Shown here: positions 3,163 to 62,746 of the stretch, piece after piece
How the letters are laid out: every line of letters starts with the position of its first letter
Position numbering within the stretch: the first letter of the stretch is position 1
Source: a virus
Virus record (IMG/VR): IMGVR_UViG_3300044971_000798
Coordinates: 1 to 62,746 of that record
Direction: 5' to 3' (one strand)
DNA length: 62,746 bases
Notes under the pieces: model-generated
Told to the model about the DNA's origin: nothing
Database searches by the model: none
What the model saw: the letters and a program-made list of their open reading frames with translations, nothing else
Position numbers and translations under genes: made by a program

Positions 3163-5010
3163 ATGTCTTCTCCGCAGAAAATATCACAATTAACAACGGC
3201 AGGCCCGCTTACTGGCGCTGAGCTAGTTCCTGTCGTACAAAACGGCGGCACCCTACAGACCACTATATCGGTGCTTGCCGCGTTTGTAAACGTGTCTATT
3301 CTGCCCGTCGTATCAGCCCTTCAGACCCAGATTGAGCAGGTATCAGTCCTTACTTCTATCAATGCTGAATCTATTACCTCCTTAAATGCGGTAGTATCTA
3401 CTTTTGATTCTCGTATTGAAGCCGTGTCAGCGGGCATTGTTTCGGTAAATAATGCCGTTTCTGCTTTGGAAGTCCGCGTAAGTTCTGTTTCGGCTGCGGC
3501 CTCCAATGCTTCGGCAGCCATCACATCCATTAATAATGTCGTAAGCGCGCTTGAAGTTCGCGTAAGTGCCGTATCTGCCCTGACTTCAGTTAATTCGGCA
3601 GCTATCACATCCATCAATAACGCCGTATCCGCTTTAGAAATCAGAGTCAGCGCGGCTTCTGCAACAGGTGTGGCTAACTCGGCGGCTATTACTTCTGTCA
3701 ATAACGTAGTAAGCGCCCTAGACATTCGCCTTACCAATGTATCGGCATCCGTATCGGTACTTAATGTGCAAATGGGGCAGGCGCTTGCCTCGATTTCAGC
3801 TATCAATTCAGTCCTCGCTACCATCGACACTTCCGCTATCGCGGGCCTAGAAGTTCGCGTTAGCAACCTGTCAATTGCGGTGTCCACTAACTCCGCTGCT
3901 ATCACTTCTGTCAATGCGGTCGTCTCTTTAAAAGTATTCCGCAATAATGATTTCCTTACCAACGTCCAGTTCATCGACTTCGACACTACCACAAGCTACG
4001 CGGTGTGCGCCGGGCGCCTGACATGGGACATTACGCATGGTACCCTCGATTTAGGTCTAACGGGCACCGTCAACTTGCTTATTGGTCAGCGTACCGTCGC
4101 CCAAATCTATAACAATAGCGGCGGCACACTTCCTAAAGGAAAAGCCGTAAAGGTTACGGGCGCCCAAGGCCAACGCTTGACGGGCGCACTTGCCCAAGCT
4201 GACAGCGATTCGGATAGTGCTACTATCTTTGGTATTATGCTTGAGACGGTTTCTAACCTAGGCTCAGGCTACGTTGCAACAGATGGCGTCGTCAACAATG
4301 TCGATACGGCGGCCTATACTGACGGCGACATCGTATACTTATCTCCAGTATCTGCTGGTGAACTAACTCCCGTCAAGCCAGTAGCACCCCAGCATCTCGT
4401 GCAAATTGGCTACATCGTCAAGGGCGGTTCAGTTGGCGGCGGCTCCCTTTATGTCAAAGTCCAAAACGGCTATGAATTAGGTGAACTTCATAACGTCAAG
4501 ACCTCTGCCGAAGTATCCATAGCAAATGGTGAAGTTTTGGTATGGAATGCAAGCGCCAGTGTCTGGACCAACTCGACTGCCCTGCTTGACACGCAAGCTT
4601 CTGTTTCTGCCCTGCAAATCCAACTCAACTCTGTGTCGGCTGCCGTCTCCACTAACGCTGCCGCCATCACCTCCATCAATAACGTAGTCAGTGCCCTTGA
4701 AATCCGTGTCAGTACCGTGTCGGCACGGGCGTCTGCAATTCAAGCGCAAGTCAACAGTGTATCCGCTTTGGTGTCTGCTCTTGATGTGCGCGTGGCCGCC
4801 GTATCAGCTTCTATATCGGCCCTGCAAGTTCAAGTCAACAATGTTTCAGCCGCGCTTACTTCCGCTAACAACGTAGTAAGCGCACTTGAGATTCGCGTCA
4901 GTGCAGCTTCTGCTACAGGCGCTACCAATTCAGCATCTATTACCTCCATCAATGCGGTACTAACGTCCATTCTTGCAATTCTCAATTCCAACTATCGCGT
5001 CTTAGAATAG
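3163..5010 (+). CDS. Coiled-coil tail fibre with 28-residue repeats (615 aa)
   Basis: Residues 1-40 (KISQLTTAGPLTGAELVPVVQ) are a fibre attachment start that resembles the start of the gene at 61740. Residues about 70-250 and 480-600 consist of repeats 'SALEVRVSxVSA...AITSINNVV'. The SALEVRVS blocks fall at residues 100, 128, 156 and 184, a period of 28, equal to four heptads, so a long trimeric coiled coil is likely. Between the two coils, residues about 255-445 form a compact beta domain with 'GYVATDGVVNNVDT' and 'VQNGYELGELHNV', often seen in marine phage fibres. Related repeats end the protein at 17775-18374. Likely role: receptor-facing or stalk fibre. Confidence 0.75.
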   Translation: MSSPQKISQLTTAGPLTGAELVPVVQNGGTLQTTISVLAAFVNVSILPVVSALQTQIEQVSVLTSINAESITSLNAVVSTFDSRIEAVSAGIVSVNNAVSALEVRVSSVSAAASNASAAITSINNVVSALEVRVSAVSALTSVNSAAITSINNAVSALEIRVSAASATGVANSAAITSVNNVVSALDIRLTNVSASVSVLNVQMGQALASISAINSVLATIDTSAIAGLEVRVSNLSIAVSTNSAAITSVNAVVSLKVFRNNDFLTNVQFIDFDTTTSYAVCAGRLTWDITHGTLDLGLTGTVNLLIGQRTVAQIYNNSGGTLPKGKAVKVTGAQGQRLTGALAQADSDSDSATIFGIMLETVSNLGSGYVATDGVVNNVDTAAYTDGDIVYLSPVSAGELTPVKPVAPQHLVQIGYIVKGGSVGGGSLYVKVQNGYELGELHNVKTSAEVSIANGEVLVWNASASVWTNSTALLDTQASVSALQIQLNSVSAAVSTNAAAITSINNVVSALEIRVSTVSARASAIQAQVNSVSALVSALDVRVAAVSASISALQVQVNNVSAALTSANNVVSALEIRVSAASATGATNSASITSINAVLTSILAILNSNYRVLE

Positions 5011-5012
5011 CA

Positions 5013-5055
5013 AGTGGTGAGCAAGTGAGAATCCCCTTGCAACCAATCCTCACTT
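5013..5055 (+). repeat. GTGAG cluster facing a CTCAC site
   Basis: GTGAGCAAGTGAGAAT is followed about 20 bases later by CCTCACTT. The arrangement resembles the larger GTGAG/CTCAC units at 54955-55090 and 56442-56568 in the divergent control region. It lies between the fibre gene and the packaging/ATPase operon and could be a protein-binding site or hairpin. Confidence 0.4.
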
Positions 5056-5065
5056 AATGTAGGAT
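5037..5065 (+). promoter_or_regulatory. Possible sigma70 promoter before the packaging operon
   Basis: TTGCAA at 5037-5042 is separated by 17 bases from TAGGAT at 5060-5065; each hexamer matches 4 of 6 consensus bases. It would start RNA near 5072, leaving a short leader with AAGGAG before the ATG at 5090. The match is moderate. Confidence 0.35.
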
Positions 5066-5089
5066 GTGCTTCTGATCAAGGAGCCACAC

Positions 5090-6565
5090 ATGACAGACAA
5101 AGTAAATCGCGTCCAACTCCTAAACGACGCCAAAGCTCAACTAACACCCTGGACTACCGAAGACGGGCGCCTATTTTTGGATTACACCGACATGGGCACC
5201 CGTCGTACCATGGCCATCACGCCCACGGGCAACTGCGACTTCCGTGGTTGGTTCTCCTCGTTCTGCGTCGACCAAATCAATATCGTGCCCAATGGCGACC
5301 TCGTCAACTCCGCCCAAACCTACTTCGCACACTGGGCACGTACTCGTGGCCCCAAACTGAAAGACTATATCCGCGTAGGCGGGCGCATAGGTGAACTCTA
5401 CATCGATACAGGCAACGACGCCAACGACGCATGGCGCATCACCCCCAACGGTATCGAGCTTGTTAAGGGCGGCCCGACCCACATCCGCATGCTGCGTGGT
5501 GCTGGCGTCTTGCCCCTTGCCGACCCCGACTTCGACGCTGATCCGTCCGAATTCCCTACCCTACTCCGCAAGTACATCGCCTCCGACGACGACACCCTCA
5601 TGCTGCTAACGGCGTGGCTTCTCGGCTGCCTGCGCCCCGAAGGCCCCTATCCCGTCCTCACCATATCCGGCGAACAAGGTTCTGGCAAATCCACAGTTTT
5701 GCGCCTGATGCGCCGTATCATCGACCCCCATGCCCTCGATATGCGTACCCCGCCCGAAGACCAGCGCGACCTACAAGCCATGGTTCGCAACTCTTTTATC
5801 CTGGCCTTCGACAACGTGTCCTTCATTTCCAACAAAATGTCTGACGCTTTGTGCGTTATCAGCACGGGCACGGGCGCCCAGGGTGGTCGCGCGCTCTACA
5901 CCAACGCCGAAGAATCTGCCGTCCGCGTATGCCGCCCCGTCGCCATGAACGGCATCCCCGACGTCGTCGAACGCGGTGACCTAGTAGACCGCTCCATCCA
6001 CGTTCACCTGCCCCGCATCGACCCCCGCCTGCGCCGCGACGATATGGAATTTTGGGACAGCTTCCACACAGATCACCCACGCTTGCTGGGTTCGCTTATG
6101 AATGCAGCATTGAAAGCTATGCAAAACTATGGTAATGTAGTCTTGGCTGAAAAGCCGCGCATGTCTGCGTTTGCAGTGTGGGCCGTTGCTGCTGAACAAG
6201 CTTTCGGGTGGAAGCCGGGTCGTCTTATGGAAGTCTATAAGAACAACCGCTCCGCCGCCGAATCCCAAATGCTTGAGTTCAACGGCATGGCATCCGCCCT
6301 GTTGCGTATGATGGCGAAGCAAAAGGAATTCTCAGGTACGTATTCGGATTTGATTGGACAACTGGAAATGAACATCGGCCCGCGCGAGCGTCTGCCCCAA
6401 ACGTCCCATAGCTTTGCTGCTGAACTCAAGCGCATTCGTCCCGCCCTTGAACGGCAGGGCTTGCGCTTCTTCAATGCCGGGCGCTCGGGTTCCGTGGAGC
6501 AGAAGGGGCGTTCCCGTATTTCCATTGTGCGCCAAGACGACGACGAGGATGCTACGGTTTCATGA
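5090..6565 (+). CDS. P-loop ATPase, primase/helicase-like (491 aa)
   Basis: Residues about 193-202 hold a Walker A loop (SGEQGSGKST) and residue 241 the acidic end of a Walker B-like strand (FILAFDN). An arginine-finger-like 'RPVAMNGI' and 'DRSIHVHLPRI' follow. This layout matches phage proteins related to the C-terminal helicase part of primases (D5/superfamily 3 type). The first 150 residues do not show an obvious primase catalytic core. I chose the ATG at 5090 because AAGGAG lies seven bases upstream; a start at 5066 is possible in the same frame. It overlaps terS (ATGA). Role in replication or packaging is inferred; it is the only helicase-like protein seen. Confidence 0.6.
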   Translation: MTDKVNRVQLLNDAKAQLTPWTTEDGRLFLDYTDMGTRRTMAITPTGNCDFRGWFSSFCVDQINIVPNGDLVNSAQTYFAHWARTRGPKLKDYIRVGGRIGELYIDTGNDANDAWRITPNGIELVKGGPTHIRMLRGAGVLPLADPDFDADPSEFPTLLRKYIASDDDTLMLLTAWLLGCLRPEGPYPVLTISGEQGSGKSTVLRLMRRIIDPHALDMRTPPEDQRDLQAMVRNSFILAFDNVSFISNKMSDALCVISTGTGAQGGRALYTNAEESAVRVCRPVAMNGIPDVVERGDLVDRSIHVHLPRIDPRLRRDDMEFWDSFHTDHPRLLGSLMNAALKAMQNYGNVVLAEKPRMSAFAVWAVAAEQAFGWKPGRLMEVYKNNRSAAESQMLEFNGMASALLRMMAKQKEFSGTYSDLIGQLEMNIGPRERLPQTSHSFAAELKRIRPALERQGLRFFNAGRSGSVEQKGRSRISIVRQDDDEDATVS

Positions 6566-54817: not shown

Positions 54818-54846
54818 TTGATTTACTGACTAGCCTAAGTTACTAT
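54818..54846 (+). promoter_or_regulatory. Possible rightward promoter in the control region
   Basis: TTGATT (54818-54823) and TACTAT (54841-54846) are 17 bases apart. A transcript would read through repeat unit A and the TG tract toward the gene at 55462. It is also placed where a primer transcript for replication could begin. Confidence 0.4.
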
Positions 54847-57226: not shown

Positions 57227-57435
57227 CTGACGACACCATGGAACTCACCCACCAAGATTTGGTCGAGGCGCTGGATCGGATCATCCGTCAGCTTGAAGTC
57301 CTTGACAACGCAGCCATCATGAAGTCCCTGAACCTGGGCATGTTCGATATTGACGAGATGATCAAGATCGTCGTACTGTACAAAAGTAAGGTGGTCGTTG
57401 ACGCCCACAAGCAAGGAGTTCTGGAATGGAAGTAA
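57223..57435 (+). CDS. Small helical protein (70 aa)
   Basis: The sequence 'LTHQDLVEALDRIIRQLEVL', 'MFDIDEMIKIVVLYKSKVVV' is a compact helical protein coupled to both neighbours: it starts on ATGA with the upstream gene and its end overlaps the thyX start by ten bases. Function unknown; possibly a partner of the upstream protein. Confidence 0.65.
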   Translation: MTDDTMELTHQDLVEALDRIIRQLEVLDNAAIMKSLNLGMFDIDEMIKIVVLYKSKVVVDAHKQGVLEWK

Positions 57436-58469
57436 CATATCTTAGTCACATGGGTGATGATCGCATGGTTGTGAACGCTGCCCGCGTGTCCTTCGGCAAG
57501 CGCACCCAAGAGTTCCGGCCCGGCAAGGACGACCGCCTGCTGGCCTTCCTAGCGCGCCACAAGCATGAACTGCCGTTTGCCCACCCCCACGTCAGCTTCC
57601 ACTTCAAGGCGCCCATCTTTGTGGCCCGGCAACTGGCCAAGCACCAAGTAGGCTTCGTGTGGTCGGAGATCAGCCGTCGCTACGTCAAGGATCGGCCCGA
57701 ATTTTATATTCCGTCCTACTGGCGCAAGGCGGCAGAAAATGTAAAGCAGGGCAGTTCTTTGGAACCTGTGGATATTTCTCCGCGTGGTAAGTGTAATCGT
57801 TGTGGTATACCTGTCAGCTATCCTAAACGGCTTTGGTGTAGCTCTGAGTGTCAAACGCTTTCTTGGCGAGAAAACAACCGCTATGCGTATATATTCTCGA
57901 AATGGGGCGCCGCTGCCAAGTTTGAGAATATTCCTTTTACTATCACGCCGGACGATCTTGCGTGGCCCGATAAGTGTCCGTATCTAGATATCCAGCTTGA
58001 TTACACTCCCGGCGACAAAAACGACAATAAGGCATCTCTGGATAAAATTGTGCCTGCTCTTGGTTACGTTCCAGGGAATGTGCAAATTGTTTCTTTGCTT
58101 GCCAATAAGATGAAAAGTTCTGCGTCCTTGGAGCAGATTAAGACTTTTGCAAAAAACGCCTTGTTTATTCACGGTGGGGTTTTTGCAGAAACTTCTCACT
58201 CCTACGCAGATTATTGTGAAAAGGCTGCTGACCTTTATGTGGAACTTATCTCACAGGGTGTTTGCGCTGAACAGGCTCGCATGGTATTGCCCCAAGCGCA
58301 ACTAACGGAATGGCACTGGACCGGAAGTCTGCTGGGCTGGAGCCGGGTCTGGAACCTGCGCGTAAAGCCTGATGCCCAGGCCGAAACCCGTGAAATTGTG
58401 CAACTAATTGGGCCAACCATGAAAGCTTTATTTCCGTTTTCTTGGTCTGCTTTGACTGGCGACCGCTAG
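57426..58469 (+). CDS. thyX: FAD-dependent thymidylate synthase with inserted endonuclease domain
   Basis: Residues 1-111 and 255-347 together make a normal-sized ThyX: 'HPHVSFHFKAPIFVARQLAK', the signature region HQVGFVWSEISRRYV (residues 73-87), and after the insert 'YVELISQGVCAEQARMVLPQ' and 'WHWTGSLLGWSRVWNLRV'. ThyX makes dTMP from dUMP with folate, NADPH and FAD. Residues about 112-254 are an in-frame insert with CNRCG and CSSEC zinc-ribbon pairs, 'CPYLDIQLDYTPG' and 'SLDKIVPALGYVPGNVQIVS', related to the HNH protein at 60565. The insert is more AT-rich. No intein splice motifs are seen, so it is either an embedded domain or is removed at RNA level. Confidence 0.88.
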   Translation: MEVTYLSHMGDDRMVVNAARVSFGKRTQEFRPGKDDRLLAFLARHKHELPFAHPHVSFHFKAPIFVARQLAKHQVGFVWSEISRRYVKDRPEFYIPSYWRKAAENVKQGSSLEPVDISPRGKCNRCGIPVSYPKRLWCSSECQTLSWRENNRYAYIFSKWGAAAKFENIPFTITPDDLAWPDKCPYLDIQLDYTPGDKNDNKASLDKIVPALGYVPGNVQIVSLLANKMKSSASLEQIKTFAKNALFIHGGVFAETSHSYADYCEKAADLYVELISQGVCAEQARMVLPQAQLTEWHWTGSLLGWSRVWNLRVKPDAQAETREIVQLIGPTMKALFPFSWSALTGDR

Positions 58470-58522: not shown

Positions 58523-60565
58523 ATGCGTAATTCACCCGAAGTGCGTACACCGTCCGTGCGCGCTGCTACCATTACTCGTCGCACTTACTCCCGCCCACTG
58601 GAAGGCGGCGGCTTTGAAAGCTGGGACGACATTGTCGGTCGCGTCGTCAGCCACCAGCGTTGGCTGTGGCAGCGGGCGCTGGGCGACGTCCCCTTGGACA
58701 AGAAGCAAGAAGATGAACTTGAAGAACTGCGTGACGTGCTGCTGCGCCGTAGCGGTTCTGTGTCTGGCCGTACCCTGTGGCTGGGCGGCACCGAAGTAGC
58801 CAAGCGCCGCGAGGCGTCCATGTTTAACTGCGCGTTCACGAAGGTGGAGACGGTCCATGACGTTGTCGACTCCTTCTGGCTGCTGTTGCAGGGCTGCGGC
58901 GTCGGCTTCGAACCCGTTGTCGGTACGCTCAATGGCTTTACTGCGCCGATGGAAATCGAAGTGGTACGGTCCCAGCGTCATCTACTGGAGCAAAAGAAAG
59001 GCCGCGAAACCAATGTCGAAACGTATACTACCGAAGGCGACCGACTCTGGGGCCGCAAAACGGTATGGACAATTAGTGTGGGTGATTCAGCAGAAGCGTG
59101 GGCAAAGTCGGTCGGTAAAATGCTGGCTGGCAAGCGGAAGGCTGATGTGCTACGACTTGACTTCTCGCAGATTCGTCCAGCCGGGCAACGTCTTAAGGGC
59201 TATGGGTGGATTTCGTCGGGTGATGAAACTTTTGCGCCTGCAATGCAGCATATCGCGGAAATCCTCAACAATCGCGCTGGTCATCTCCTTTCCCGAATCG
59301 ACATCCTCGACGTCCTCAACCACCTTGGCACAACCCTCTCCTCACGTCGTTCGGCTGAGATTGCGCTCGTTCCTTACGGCGATGCCGAATGGGTAGACTT
59401 TGCCAAGGCCAAAAAGGACTTCTGGCTACATAACAACTACCACCGCCAGCAATCTAACAACTCCGTCACTTTCCACGCCAAACCTGCGCGCGAAGACATT
59501 GCCGGGTTGTTCGACATGATGCAAGATGCGGGCGGCTCCGAGCCGGGTTTCATCAACTTTGTGGAGGGCAAGCGCCGGGGTCCGTGGATGTCGGGCGTCA
59601 ATCCCTGCGCCGAAATCCTGCTGCCCAACAAGGGCTTCTGTAACTTGGTGGAAATCAATCTGTCACACTTCAACGGCATCCACGCCAAGAAGCTGTGGCG
59701 GGTGGCGGAACTGCTGGCCCGTGCCAACTACCGCCAGACCTGCGTCAATCTGGTGGACGGCGTCCTTCAGCGGGCGTGGCACGAGAACAACGAGTTCCTG
59801 CGGCTGTGTGGCGTGGGCGTCACAGGCGTTGCCGAATGGGAACCAGCGGGTGATCCGTCCGTCTGGCGCATGCTTCGCGACAAAGTCAAGCGGGCGGCGA
59901 ATGGTATGGCCGACGAACTGGGGCTGCCGCGTCCCAAGGCCGTCACTACGGTCAAGCCGTCGGGCACCCTGTCGAAGATTATGGACACGACCGAAGGCGT
60001 TCACAAGCCGCTGGGCCGCTATATCTTCAATAATGTACGCTTCAGCAAGCACGATCCGTTCGTTCAGGAACTGGTGGACGCCAACTATAAGGTGATTCAG
60101 GACCCGTCCAGCCAGGATGCGGTGCTGGTTACGTTCCCGGTGGCCTACCCACGGGTCCAGATGGACGAAGTAGACGGTAAGTTCGTCAACTTGGAACCCG
60201 CGACGGTCCAGTTGGCTCGCTACAAGACCATGATGGACAATTATGTGGACCATAACTGTTCGGTTACGATCAGCTACAGCCCGGAAGAAGCACCGGAAAT
60301 CGTGGATTGGCTCCATGAAAACTGGGAATCCTACGTGGGCGTGAGCTTTTTGTACCGGACAGACCCCACTAAGACGGCCAAGGACCTTGGCTATTTATAT
60401 TTGCCCCAACAGGTTGTTACAGAAGAAGAATATAATGAGTATGTAAGTACCTTGAAGCCTATAAAAGGGGAAGAAATGGGTACGAATGAACTTGTAAAAG
60501 AAGCTGACGACTTTGAAATCGACACCGGAAGCGAATGTGCAACTGGTGCGTGTCCTGTACGGTAA
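58523..60565 (+). CDS. Class II (B12-dependent) ribonucleotide reductase, monomeric type
   Basis: The 680-residue enzyme has the active-site Cys pattern of adenosylcobalamin-dependent RTPR: C103 (FNCAF) and C373 (GFCNLVEI) as the redox pair, C362 (NPCAEILLPN) as the thiyl radical site, and C672/C677 (ECATGACPVR) as the C-terminal shuttle. 'GCGVGFEPV' and 'TVKPSGTLSKIMDTTEGVH' are also typical. It turns ribonucleoside triphosphates into deoxy forms and needs B12 from the host. It follows thyX and precedes an HNH gene on TAATG. Confidence 0.92.
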   Translation: MRNSPEVRTPSVRAATITRRTYSRPLEGGGFESWDDIVGRVVSHQRWLWQRALGDVPLDKKQEDELEELRDVLLRRSGSVSGRTLWLGGTEVAKRREASMFNCAFTKVETVHDVVDSFWLLLQGCGVGFEPVVGTLNGFTAPMEIEVVRSQRHLLEQKKGRETNVETYTTEGDRLWGRKTVWTISVGDSAEAWAKSVGKMLAGKRKADVLRLDFSQIRPAGQRLKGYGWISSGDETFAPAMQHIAEILNNRAGHLLSRIDILDVLNHLGTTLSSRRSAEIALVPYGDAEWVDFAKAKKDFWLHNNYHRQQSNNSVTFHAKPAREDIAGLFDMMQDAGGSEPGFINFVEGKRRGPWMSGVNPCAEILLPNKGFCNLVEINLSHFNGIHAKKLWRVAELLARANYRQTCVNLVDGVLQRAWHENNEFLRLCGVGVTGVAEWEPAGDPSVWRMLRDKVKRAANGMADELGLPRPKAVTTVKPSGTLSKIMDTTEGVHKPLGRYIFNNVRFSKHDPFVQELVDANYKVIQDPSSQDAVLVTFPVAYPRVQMDEVDGKFVNLEPATVQLARYKTMMDNYVDHNCSVTISYSPEEAPEIVDWLHENWESYVGVSFLYRTDPTKTAKDLGYLYLPQQVVTEEEYNEYVSTLKPIKGEEMGTNELVKEADDFEIDTGSECATGACPVR

Positions 60566-60993
60566 TGCCCCATAAGGACAGAGATCAGGACCGGGAGTAT
60601 AAGCGCCAATATTACTCCCGGCGCCGCCGCGAAGACCCTGAATACAGCCGAAAAGGCCAGTACGACTGGCGTGTTAGGAACCCGAAGAAGTATTTACTGT
60701 CTAGGGCCAGGGGCAGAGCTAAGGTAGAGGGTATTCCCTTTGCTATTACAGATGAAGATTTTGAAATACCTGAATATTGCCCAATATTTAGGCATCTCAA
60801 ATTGCAATTTAGTAATGGCAGAGGTAGTAGACCTGATAATATACCCACTCTAGATAAGATAATACCCGCTTTGGGGTATGTTCCGGGTAATGTAGCTGTA
60901 ATATCAATGCGGGCTAATCGCCTAAAGAGCGATTCTACGGCACAAGAATTGCAAGCTATATTGGATTGGATCAATGATCAAACAGCAAGCTAA
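60565..60993 (+). CDS. HNH-type endonuclease downstream of RNR (142 aa)
   Basis: The ATG at 60565 overlaps the RNR stop (TAATG). The protein has a basic N-terminus ('YKRQYYSRRRREDPEYSRKG') and a C-terminal core 'CPIFRHLKLQFSNGRGSRPD', 'TLDKIIPALGYVPGNVAVIS', MRANRLKSD. The core is closely similar to the domain inserted in ThyX (LDKI then PALGYVPGNV identical in both). It is AT-rich compared with the RNR. It is probably a free homing endonuclease of the same family. Confidence 0.8.
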   Translation: MPHKDRDQDREYKRQYYSRRRREDPEYSRKGQYDWRVRNPKKYLLSRARGRAKVEGIPFAITDEDFEIPEYCPIFRHLKLQFSNGRGSRPDNIPTLDKIIPALGYVPGNVAVISMRANRLKSDSTAQELQAILDWINDQTAS

Positions 60994-61739: not shown

Positions 61740-62746
61740 ATGCCAAATTTTAAAATCTCGCAGCTTACGACGGCAACTGCCGTCTCGGCCACCAACCAAT
61801 TTGAAATCAATCAGAACGCCGCTTCCCGCAGCTTGGAAGTATCGGTGCTTTCTACCTATATTCGCAGCGGCGATTCCGGCAAAGCTATTGTAGTATCCGT
61901 AAGTACCGCATCTGACGCCGTCCGTATCACCCAGACAGGCACTGGCAACGCGCTGGTAGTTGAGGATAGCACAAATCCCGATAGCAGTCCGTTTGTGGTA
62001 GATGCTTCCGGCAATGTTGGCGTGGGAACTGGAACCCCAACCGCTAAACTAGACATTGGTTCGGGCAACCTTTCGTTCACCAGTACGGGGCAGCGCATTA
62101 CGGGGGACTTTAGTAACGGCACACAAAGCAATCGTGTATTTTTTCAAACCACAACCGCAGGCGGCGGTACCTCAGTTGGCACCATCCCAAATGCAACGGG
62201 AGTTAACAGTGCCTTTAATGCTTTTGGAGGGCCAGACCCAGGCAACGCATCTTTTGCTCAACTTAGGGCTGGTTCAGATACGTCAGATGTTCGTTTGACT
62301 TCTGGCATAAATGGAACTGGCACCTACTACCCCATGACGTTTTACACAGGCGGCTCCGAGCGGATGCGCCTGGATACGTCTGGCAACGTTGGGATTGGGA
62401 CGACAAGCACCACTGCAAATGCAAAGTTGGCGGTGGAGCAGGGTATAGTCGCACGGGCTTCAACAGCAGGGTTAGTTCCTTACCTACAGTTGTATAACTC
62501 AAATGCTGGCACTGATCTAAAAACATGGCGGTTTGGCGGCGATTCTGCTGGGTCGCTTTCAATTGAAACAGTTAATGATGCTTATAGCGCTGCTGTGCAG
62601 CGTTTGGTTATTAACAGCAGCGGCAACGTGGGGATTGGGACGAGTTCGCCTTCGGCATACGGCCTGACAGTAAGTAAGGCTTCTGGTGCCGCAGGAATGC
62701 AAATTGCGTCAGGGGCTAATAATTCTGACTTTGTAATGAGTGGAAC
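61740..62746 (+). CDS. Tail fibre, N-terminal two thirds; continues at 2044
   Basis: The frame is open to the contig end (335 codons plus two bases). The N-terminus PNFKISQLTTATAVSATNQF resembles the fibre at 3163 and is an attachment domain. The body has repeats of 'SGNVGVGTGTPTAKLDIGSG', 'ERMRLDTSGNVGIGTTST' and '[20 protein letters not shown]' type, which often precede an S74 chaperone. The last 127 bases equal 1917-2043 in the same frame, so the protein most likely continues through 2044-2677 to the S74 domain and stop. Confidence 0.85.
   Translation, partial: MPNFKISQLTTATAVSATNQFEINQNAASRSLEVSVLSTYIRSGDSGKAIVVSVSTASDAVRITQTGTGNALVVEDSTNPDSSPFVVDASGNVGVGTGTPTAKLDIGSGNLSFTSTGQRITGDFSNGTQSNRVFFQTTTAGGGTSVGTIPNATGVNSAFNAFGGPDPGNASFAQLRAGSDTSDVRLTSGINGTGTYYPMTFYTGGSERMRLDTSGNVGIGTTSTTANAKLAVEQGIVARASTAGLVPYLQLYNSNAGTDLKTWRFGGDSAGSLSIETVNDAYSAAVQRLVINSSGNVGIGTSSPSAYGLTVSKASGAAGMQIASGANNSDFVMSG
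62620..62746 (+). repeat. 127-base exact repeat, terminal copy
   Basis: These are the last 127 bases of the contig and equal 1917-2043 exactly, in the same frame. The distance between copies is 60,703 bases, the inferred genome length. Confidence 0.95.

Follow-up and report, generated by a model that had tools for sequence, protein, structure and literature searches.

An HNH / Endo VII-like homing endonuclease appears to lie, unspliced and in frame, within a surface loop of the thymidylate synthase ThyX of an uncultured phage (IMGVR_UViG_3300044971_000798), after the ThyX motif KQGS. We give this reading a probability of roughly two in three. The whole stretch of DNA analysed, 62,746 nucleotides, is referred to here as the window, and L-numbers are labels for the loci of its relatives. 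At the level of sequence, the gene carries an in-frame endonuclease domain with no intein parts, both the ThyX sequence and the HNH core are intact, the domain is embedded in about 620 bp of imported DNA, and sibling genes of the same family are optional. From the same data we infer the absence of RNA and protein splicing, the activity of ThyX, cleavage of DNA by the HNH domain, and active homing.

In the proposed mechanism, the complete 347-residue chain would be translated and retained with no splicing machinery, and the ThyX core would fold around the added domain and remain active. The HNH domain would then cut or nick the uninterrupted thyX of co-infecting phages, and repair off the interrupted allele would copy the endonuclease together with short flanking ThyX stretches. 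That the product is a working single-chain ThyX–HNH protein, in which the homing endonuclease travels from phage to phage as an internal part of a metabolic enzyme of the essential type and is never spliced out, seems somewhat better than an even bet.

Homing endonucleases located inside genes are thought to require an intron or an intein to spare the host gene. In the phage studied here, an HNH endonuclease apparently made its way into the interior of a gene for dTMP synthesis without the aid of either, and the footprint of its copying is still visible. If true, this would represent a third in-gene lifestyle of homing endonucleases, besides the intron- or intein-borne and the free-standing ones, in which insertion into a tolerant loop replaces splicing. 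Should the fusion prove active as ThyX, it would demonstrate directly that loop tolerance can stand in for splicing, and it would provide a compact, testable model of the way in which selfish genes give rise to domain insertions and bifunctional proteins.

The interrupted thyX gene

The thyX ORF extends from 57426 to 58469 on the plus strand and comprises 347 codons in a single open frame with no internal stop. Pfam Thy1 matches it at 8.8e-40, split into two stretches around the insert, and the NCBIfam model TIGR02170 matches it at 2.6e-31, above the cut-off. A ThyX profile search of the genome gave matches at 57441-57728 and 58188-58436, on either side of the insert. The N-terminal part of ThyX (residues 1-111; 57426-57758, plus strand) contains the ThyX motif up to SRRY as well as KQGSS. 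The C-terminal part belonging to the resident clade (58303-58469, plus strand; 53 codons) was delimited by codon-by-codon DNA comparison, and its last 17 codons are identical in DNA to those of L003, L006 and L007.

The segment that separates KQGS from EQAR is 171 residues long in the window, compared to 33 to 50 (mostly 36) in intact relatives, a net gain of about 135 amino acids. The insertion site is best read as a length-variable surface loop of ThyX after KQGS, and because the length of this loop varies, the edges of the insert are uncertain by about 10 residues. An earlier note on this DNA had described an insert of about 143 residues at 57759-58190, following KQGSS, with ThyX resuming at SHSYADYCEKA. 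The insert and the two ThyX halves are borne out, but the net size is about 135 residues with the uncertainty just given, the foreign DNA reaches from 57685 to 58302, and ThyX sequence of the donor type picks up from near T256. The relatives with uninterrupted thyX that the note had recommended looking for were found: the insertion site is empty in the close relatives L002 to L026 and in the more distant L027 to L029.

The HNH endonuclease insert

The inserted HNH domain (57762-58180, plus strand) was assigned by matches to two PHROG families, an alignment of HNH-family proteins (A3), an AF2 model and fold comparisons. The PHROG endonuclease family phrog_3322 matches residues 145-244 with an E-value of 2.9e-27, and phrog_1035 (Endo VII) matches residues 119-248 at 4.7e-13; none of the Pfam HNH models reached E 5 on the insert. 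Zinc-ribbon-like Cys pairs, CNRC and CSSEC, lie at residues 123-142 (C123/C126 and C138/C142; 57792-57851, plus strand), and the motif of the HNH catalytic region, SLDKIVPALGYVPGNVQIVSLLANKMK, lies at 58041-58115 on the plus strand. All 10 residues that are invariant among the 14 aligned HNH proteins of A3 are present, the first two of them, C79-P80, just upstream of SLDKIVPALGYVPGNVQIVSLLANKMK. The two zinc-ribbon Cys pairs and the HNH-type core that the note had described are both borne out. The note's description of the insert as AT-rich with an open frame holds as well: the G+C content of the insert is 0.449 versus 0.602 in the upstream part of thyX, with 0.551 for the whole record, and the frame is free of stops over all 347 codons.

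The insert shows no ATG of its own before residue 229 of the ThyX–HNH chain, no Shine-Dalgarno-like site before its last quarter and no stop codon belonging to HNH. Translation of a separate HNH protein from an internal start was considered and rejected, as only TTG and GTG codons occur near the left edge and their upstream context is weak. Since the insert has neither start nor stop of its own, and its sibling genes elsewhere do have their own starts, the HNH endonuclease should be produced solely as part of the ThyX chain.

Splicing

In phage thymidylate synthase genes, endonucleases are classically carried by introns, as in T4 td. An in-frame insert in thyX might conceal an intron that splices itself, is a multiple of three nucleotides long and carries an endonuclease frame continuous with both exons, as with T4 td/I-TevI. 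The earlier note had left room for such a hidden intron. For a splicing ALTERNATIVES, the Rfam intron search gave no match even at E 10, and RNA folding is ordinary (z -0.82). The Rfam test is only moderately sensitive: in a control on T4 it found the nrdB intron and missed td, so true group I introns can be overlooked by the model, which leaves a hidden intron some ground. As this test is imperfect, the stronger argument is one of space. HNH homology spans about 390 of the 405 to 430 inserted nucleotides, filling nearly the whole insert, and little if any space is left for a group I core (the Rfam model has 253 nt). On these grounds group I and group II introns were set aside, and the hidden intron is now disfavoured as quite improbable.

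An aberrant intein that lacks a recognizable splicing domain would be a second way of sparing the enzyme. Inteins in ThyX do occur elsewhere, for example in Ter ThyX (PMC3620165), and a Ser is found at the left edge of the insert. However, searches of the ThyX–HNH ORF for an intein or Hint-type splicing domain gave no match at E<=1 to 5, the terminal His-Asn is absent, and the HNH homology takes up the room required by a splicing domain, which is about 130 aa long. The note had seen no intein blocks, and the profile searches agree; with splicing domain, terminal residues and room all lacking, an intein of any kind is hardly credible. An unspliced endonuclease domain within ThyX, which the note had put forward, is the best-supported reading.

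Imported DNA around the insert

The DNA foreign to the rest of thyX is larger than the HNH insert. It forms a tract of about 620 bp, at approximately 57685-58302, and includes ThyX sequence on both sides: an upstream part at 57685-57758 (plus strand; about codons 87-111), which is L047-like, and a downstream part at 58191-58302 (plus strand; about residues 256-293), which resembles distant ThyX. Both parts are marked by a drop in DNA identity. Compared codon by codon to L006, L003 and L007, the window is 83-100% identical in DNA over most of codons 13-84; identity falls to about 67% or less in codons 85-111, lies at 42-61% in codons 271-294, and recovers to 92-100% at codon 295 and beyond. Across close relatives, it is about 64-75% in the upstream part of the tract versus 83-94% just before it, and 42-69% in codons 271-294 versus 72-100% after them. 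Against L006, the fraction of identical positions in thyX is 0.919 outside the tract and 0.562 inside (Fisher p 6e-20).

A hypervariable region of ThyX could look similar to an import. In 136 pairs of ThyX genes from the window's own clade, used as a control, identity was 0.794 in the tract codons and 0.775 outside (mean difference -0.019), and the largest contrast in any such pair was 0.089, compared to a smallest contrast of 0.139 in comparisons with the window. Within the clade, variability in the tract codons does not exceed that of the remaining codons; as own-clade pairs show no contrast, the tract represents an import, and the hypervariable explanation was rejected.

Protein comparisons tell where the tract belongs. 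L047 ThyX is 84% and 71% identical to the window in the two parts of the tract and 55% identical elsewhere, whereas the window's own clade is 52-72% and 54-58% identical in these parts and 82-95% elsewhere. Near T256, where ThyX sequence of the donor type picks up, the window reads TSHSYADYCEKAADLY versus FSAAYKDFINKAEDFY in Vibrio phage BA6, and the pattern of the helix after the insert, SHSYADYCEKAADLY, fits the ThyX of Vibrio phage BA6 and Pseudomonas phage Lana. A DNA similarity search for the donor gave no match. An open ThyX frame nearly identical to that of podovirus BA6 was also seen, mostly unannotated, in Vibrio phage V05 (L159, MT135024) at ~900-1800.

Because the tract is unlike the window's own clade and like distant ThyX, the endonuclease and its flanks probably came in together, by recombination between conserved ThyX motifs. 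Together with the optional siblings described below, the tract is, on sequence grounds, the footprint expected of homing with co-conversion of flanks, and it is this mosaic that points to spread of the thyX insert itself.

With metagenomic data, a foreign tract of some 620 bp could also arise when two phages are joined into an assembly chimera. Such a chimera is extremely improbable, as the resident gene resumes on both sides of the tract, the DNA shared at the edges is short (~26 nt at the left one), and the window matches a second contig, IMGVR_UViG_3300033994_000893, at 100% identity across 10,304 nt. This identical twin makes a simple assembly error unlikely, and still represents one lineage.

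Neither further carriers of the fusion nor a donor ThyX with the insert were found among 50,697 phage records, in which no place covered 80% of the query, or in the viral contigs and species genomes searched; the pattern searches for carriers reach only sequences of similar spacing and motifs. Among 78 viral loci collected by searching with the HNH-family alignment, the window's twin was the only one to continue past the HNH core into part of a host gene. Two loci, L080 and L081, were considered as N-terminal HNH fusions and set aside, since the extra stretch appears, as judged by eye, to be upstream read-through before a plausible ATG.

Sibling HNH genes in related phages

Members of the same HNH family occur optionally at three more places, filled in some of the phages and empty in others: at the stop codon of a reductase gene, at an intergenic site and at the 5' end of thyX. 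Downstream of thyX in the window lies a 680-aa ORF (58523-60565, plus strand) which, from recognition of its sequence, we take to be ribonucleotide reductase-like, and which is 94-95% identical in L003 and L006. At its stop codon, a second HNH gene (60565-60993, plus strand; ~42% identity to the insert) begins with a TAATG overlap. L003 and L006 lack it, and the stop codon that ends their reductase gene corresponds to the one that ends the HNH gene in the window. A third member of the family in L006 (~1520-1960) has an AAGGAG-type site and an ATG and occupies an intergenic site whose counterpart in the window, near 54842, carries no such gene. In L010, an HNH gene at ~4785-5330, also with an AAGGAG-type ribosome site and an ATG, sits at the 5' end of thyX; there, a short duplicated start of thyX is followed by the HNH gene, and a complete thyX start is supplied anew downstream. 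These empty and filled sites indicate that HNH genes come and go at several positions in these phages, with thyX struck at least twice. On a distant viral contig, L031, a same-family HNH gene was seen shortly downstream of an intact thyX (~6040-6515).

The behavior of the siblings bears on a further possibility, namely that the enzyme is bifunctional and domesticated, its nuclease serving the phage, for example by coupling breakdown of host DNA to dTMP synthesis or by excluding rivals. An intact HNH core and ThyX on one chain would suit such a role, and a role in phage competition has been reported for an intron endonuclease of phage PhiPA3 (PMC11620839). However, the insert is absent from the close relatives examined, the siblings act as optional elements, and any action against rivals would itself amount to homing carried further. 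A bifunctional enzyme, as entertained in the earlier note, is possible and unneeded; the population data favour a mobile homing endonuclease, and domestication is regarded as very improbable.

Predicted structure and the state of ThyX

For structure prediction with AF2, the ThyX and HNH parts were modelled with separate alignments, the alignment for the full-length model holding ThyX rows only. In the full-length model, pLDDT is 80-98 in most ThyX blocks and about 72 beside the insert, and confidence within the insert is low. Foldseek matched this model to the T. maritima FDTS up to residue ~343 with a probability of 1.00. Modelled alone with its HNH relatives, the insert reached a pLDDT of 80, and its best fold matches are HNH nucleases, with middling Z-scores (PacI 3ldy, Z 6.7; 4h9d, Z 4.9) and Foldseek E-values of about 1. 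The ThyX core is thus predicted to be intact around the insert.

These results have to be weighed against the possibility that thyX has been inactivated, the endonuclease having fallen into the reading frame accidentally and the fused product being dead as an enzyme, with the insert a parasite or the phage relying on the enzyme of its host. Host cells normally possess a thymidylate synthase of their own. Moreover, the fusion event is recent, as judged from its restriction to a single lineage and from the last 17 codons, so purifying selection on the fusion cannot show itself and is immeasurable. Several observations argue against inactivation. First, both edges of the insert are in frame, there are no stops, and all 41 columns that are invariant across the 31 ThyX sequences of alignment A2 are kept in the fusion, on both sides of the insert. 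Second, the ThyX core is predicted to be intact, and the insertion falls in a loop of variable length. Third, the HNH domain has no stop of its own, and a parasite to which ThyX did not matter would normally be expected to retain one, as the siblings do. Finally, a genome search found no second thymidylate synthase in the whole record; as thyX is the only one, a dead enzyme becomes less likely. Inactivation is on balance unlikely, and a ThyX that would work with the HNH domain in its loop is preferred.

Relation to known systems

The note had considered an unspliced endonuclease domain in ThyX to be novel. This has to be toned down, as precedents of the kind exist in phage methylases such as Taj_79 (PMC9957025), and in ShiLan (PMC11855218). 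The present case is set apart by bringing together an HNH domain, a shared reading frame, ThyX as the host enzyme and a tract of import that can still be seen. The literature searched, which excluded subscription journals, yielded no previous description of an HNH domain read in frame with ThyX.

In actinophage DNA methylases of the Taj_79 type, a LAGLIDADG domain lies in frame, no intein or intron was detected, and the domain was predicted to be separate and not to disturb the enzyme (PMC9957025). The window resembles this case in having a homing endonuclease domain in frame in a phage enzyme with no intein or intron detected. It differs in that the Taj_79 domain is a LAGLIDADG in a methylase and apparently vertically inherited, whereas the window has an HNH domain in an enzyme of dTMP synthesis, within a freshly imported tract. 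The ShiLan domain is likewise an HNH insert that leaves the host frame open, with no splicing element found and a patchy distribution (PMC11855218). However, the ShiLan HNH is read in another frame with its own GTG and TAA, while the window's HNH uses the ThyX frame and has neither start nor stop.

Invasion of a critical region of a gene for nucleotide or DNA metabolism by an HNH endonuclease is also shared with mobE in Aeh1 nrdA and mobA in the T4 topoisomerase gene, but in those cases the insertion breaks the host gene into distinct coding regions (PMC2988022), in contrast to the single chain here. As with the group I intron of T4 td and its I-TevI, a homing endonuclease lies within a phage thymidylate synthase gene; that td gene is of the ThyA type and its intron is spliced, whereas in the window the gene is thyX and no intron core was recognized. 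That mobile elements target ThyX, and can interrupt it in frame, is evident from the Ter ThyX intein (PMC3620165); unlike the window's insert, which has no splicing domain, this intein is splicing-competent. Finally, the match to the PHROG endonuclease VII profile implies a distant family relation to F-CphI and the Endo VII-like homing endonucleases (PMC6083498). Unlike the insert in the window, F-CphI is free-standing beside an intron-bearing gene (PMC6083498).

Repeats in the record

Two minor features concern the record as a whole. An exact 127-bp direct repeat occurs at 1917-2043 and again at 62620-62746, where the record ends. This points to a genome of about 60.7 kb that is circular or circularly permuted, in which case bases 1-1916 would be surplus sequence from the assembly. 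At 3448-3725 there are two overlapping diverged repeats of 194 bp, with 67% identity and a shift of 84 bp.
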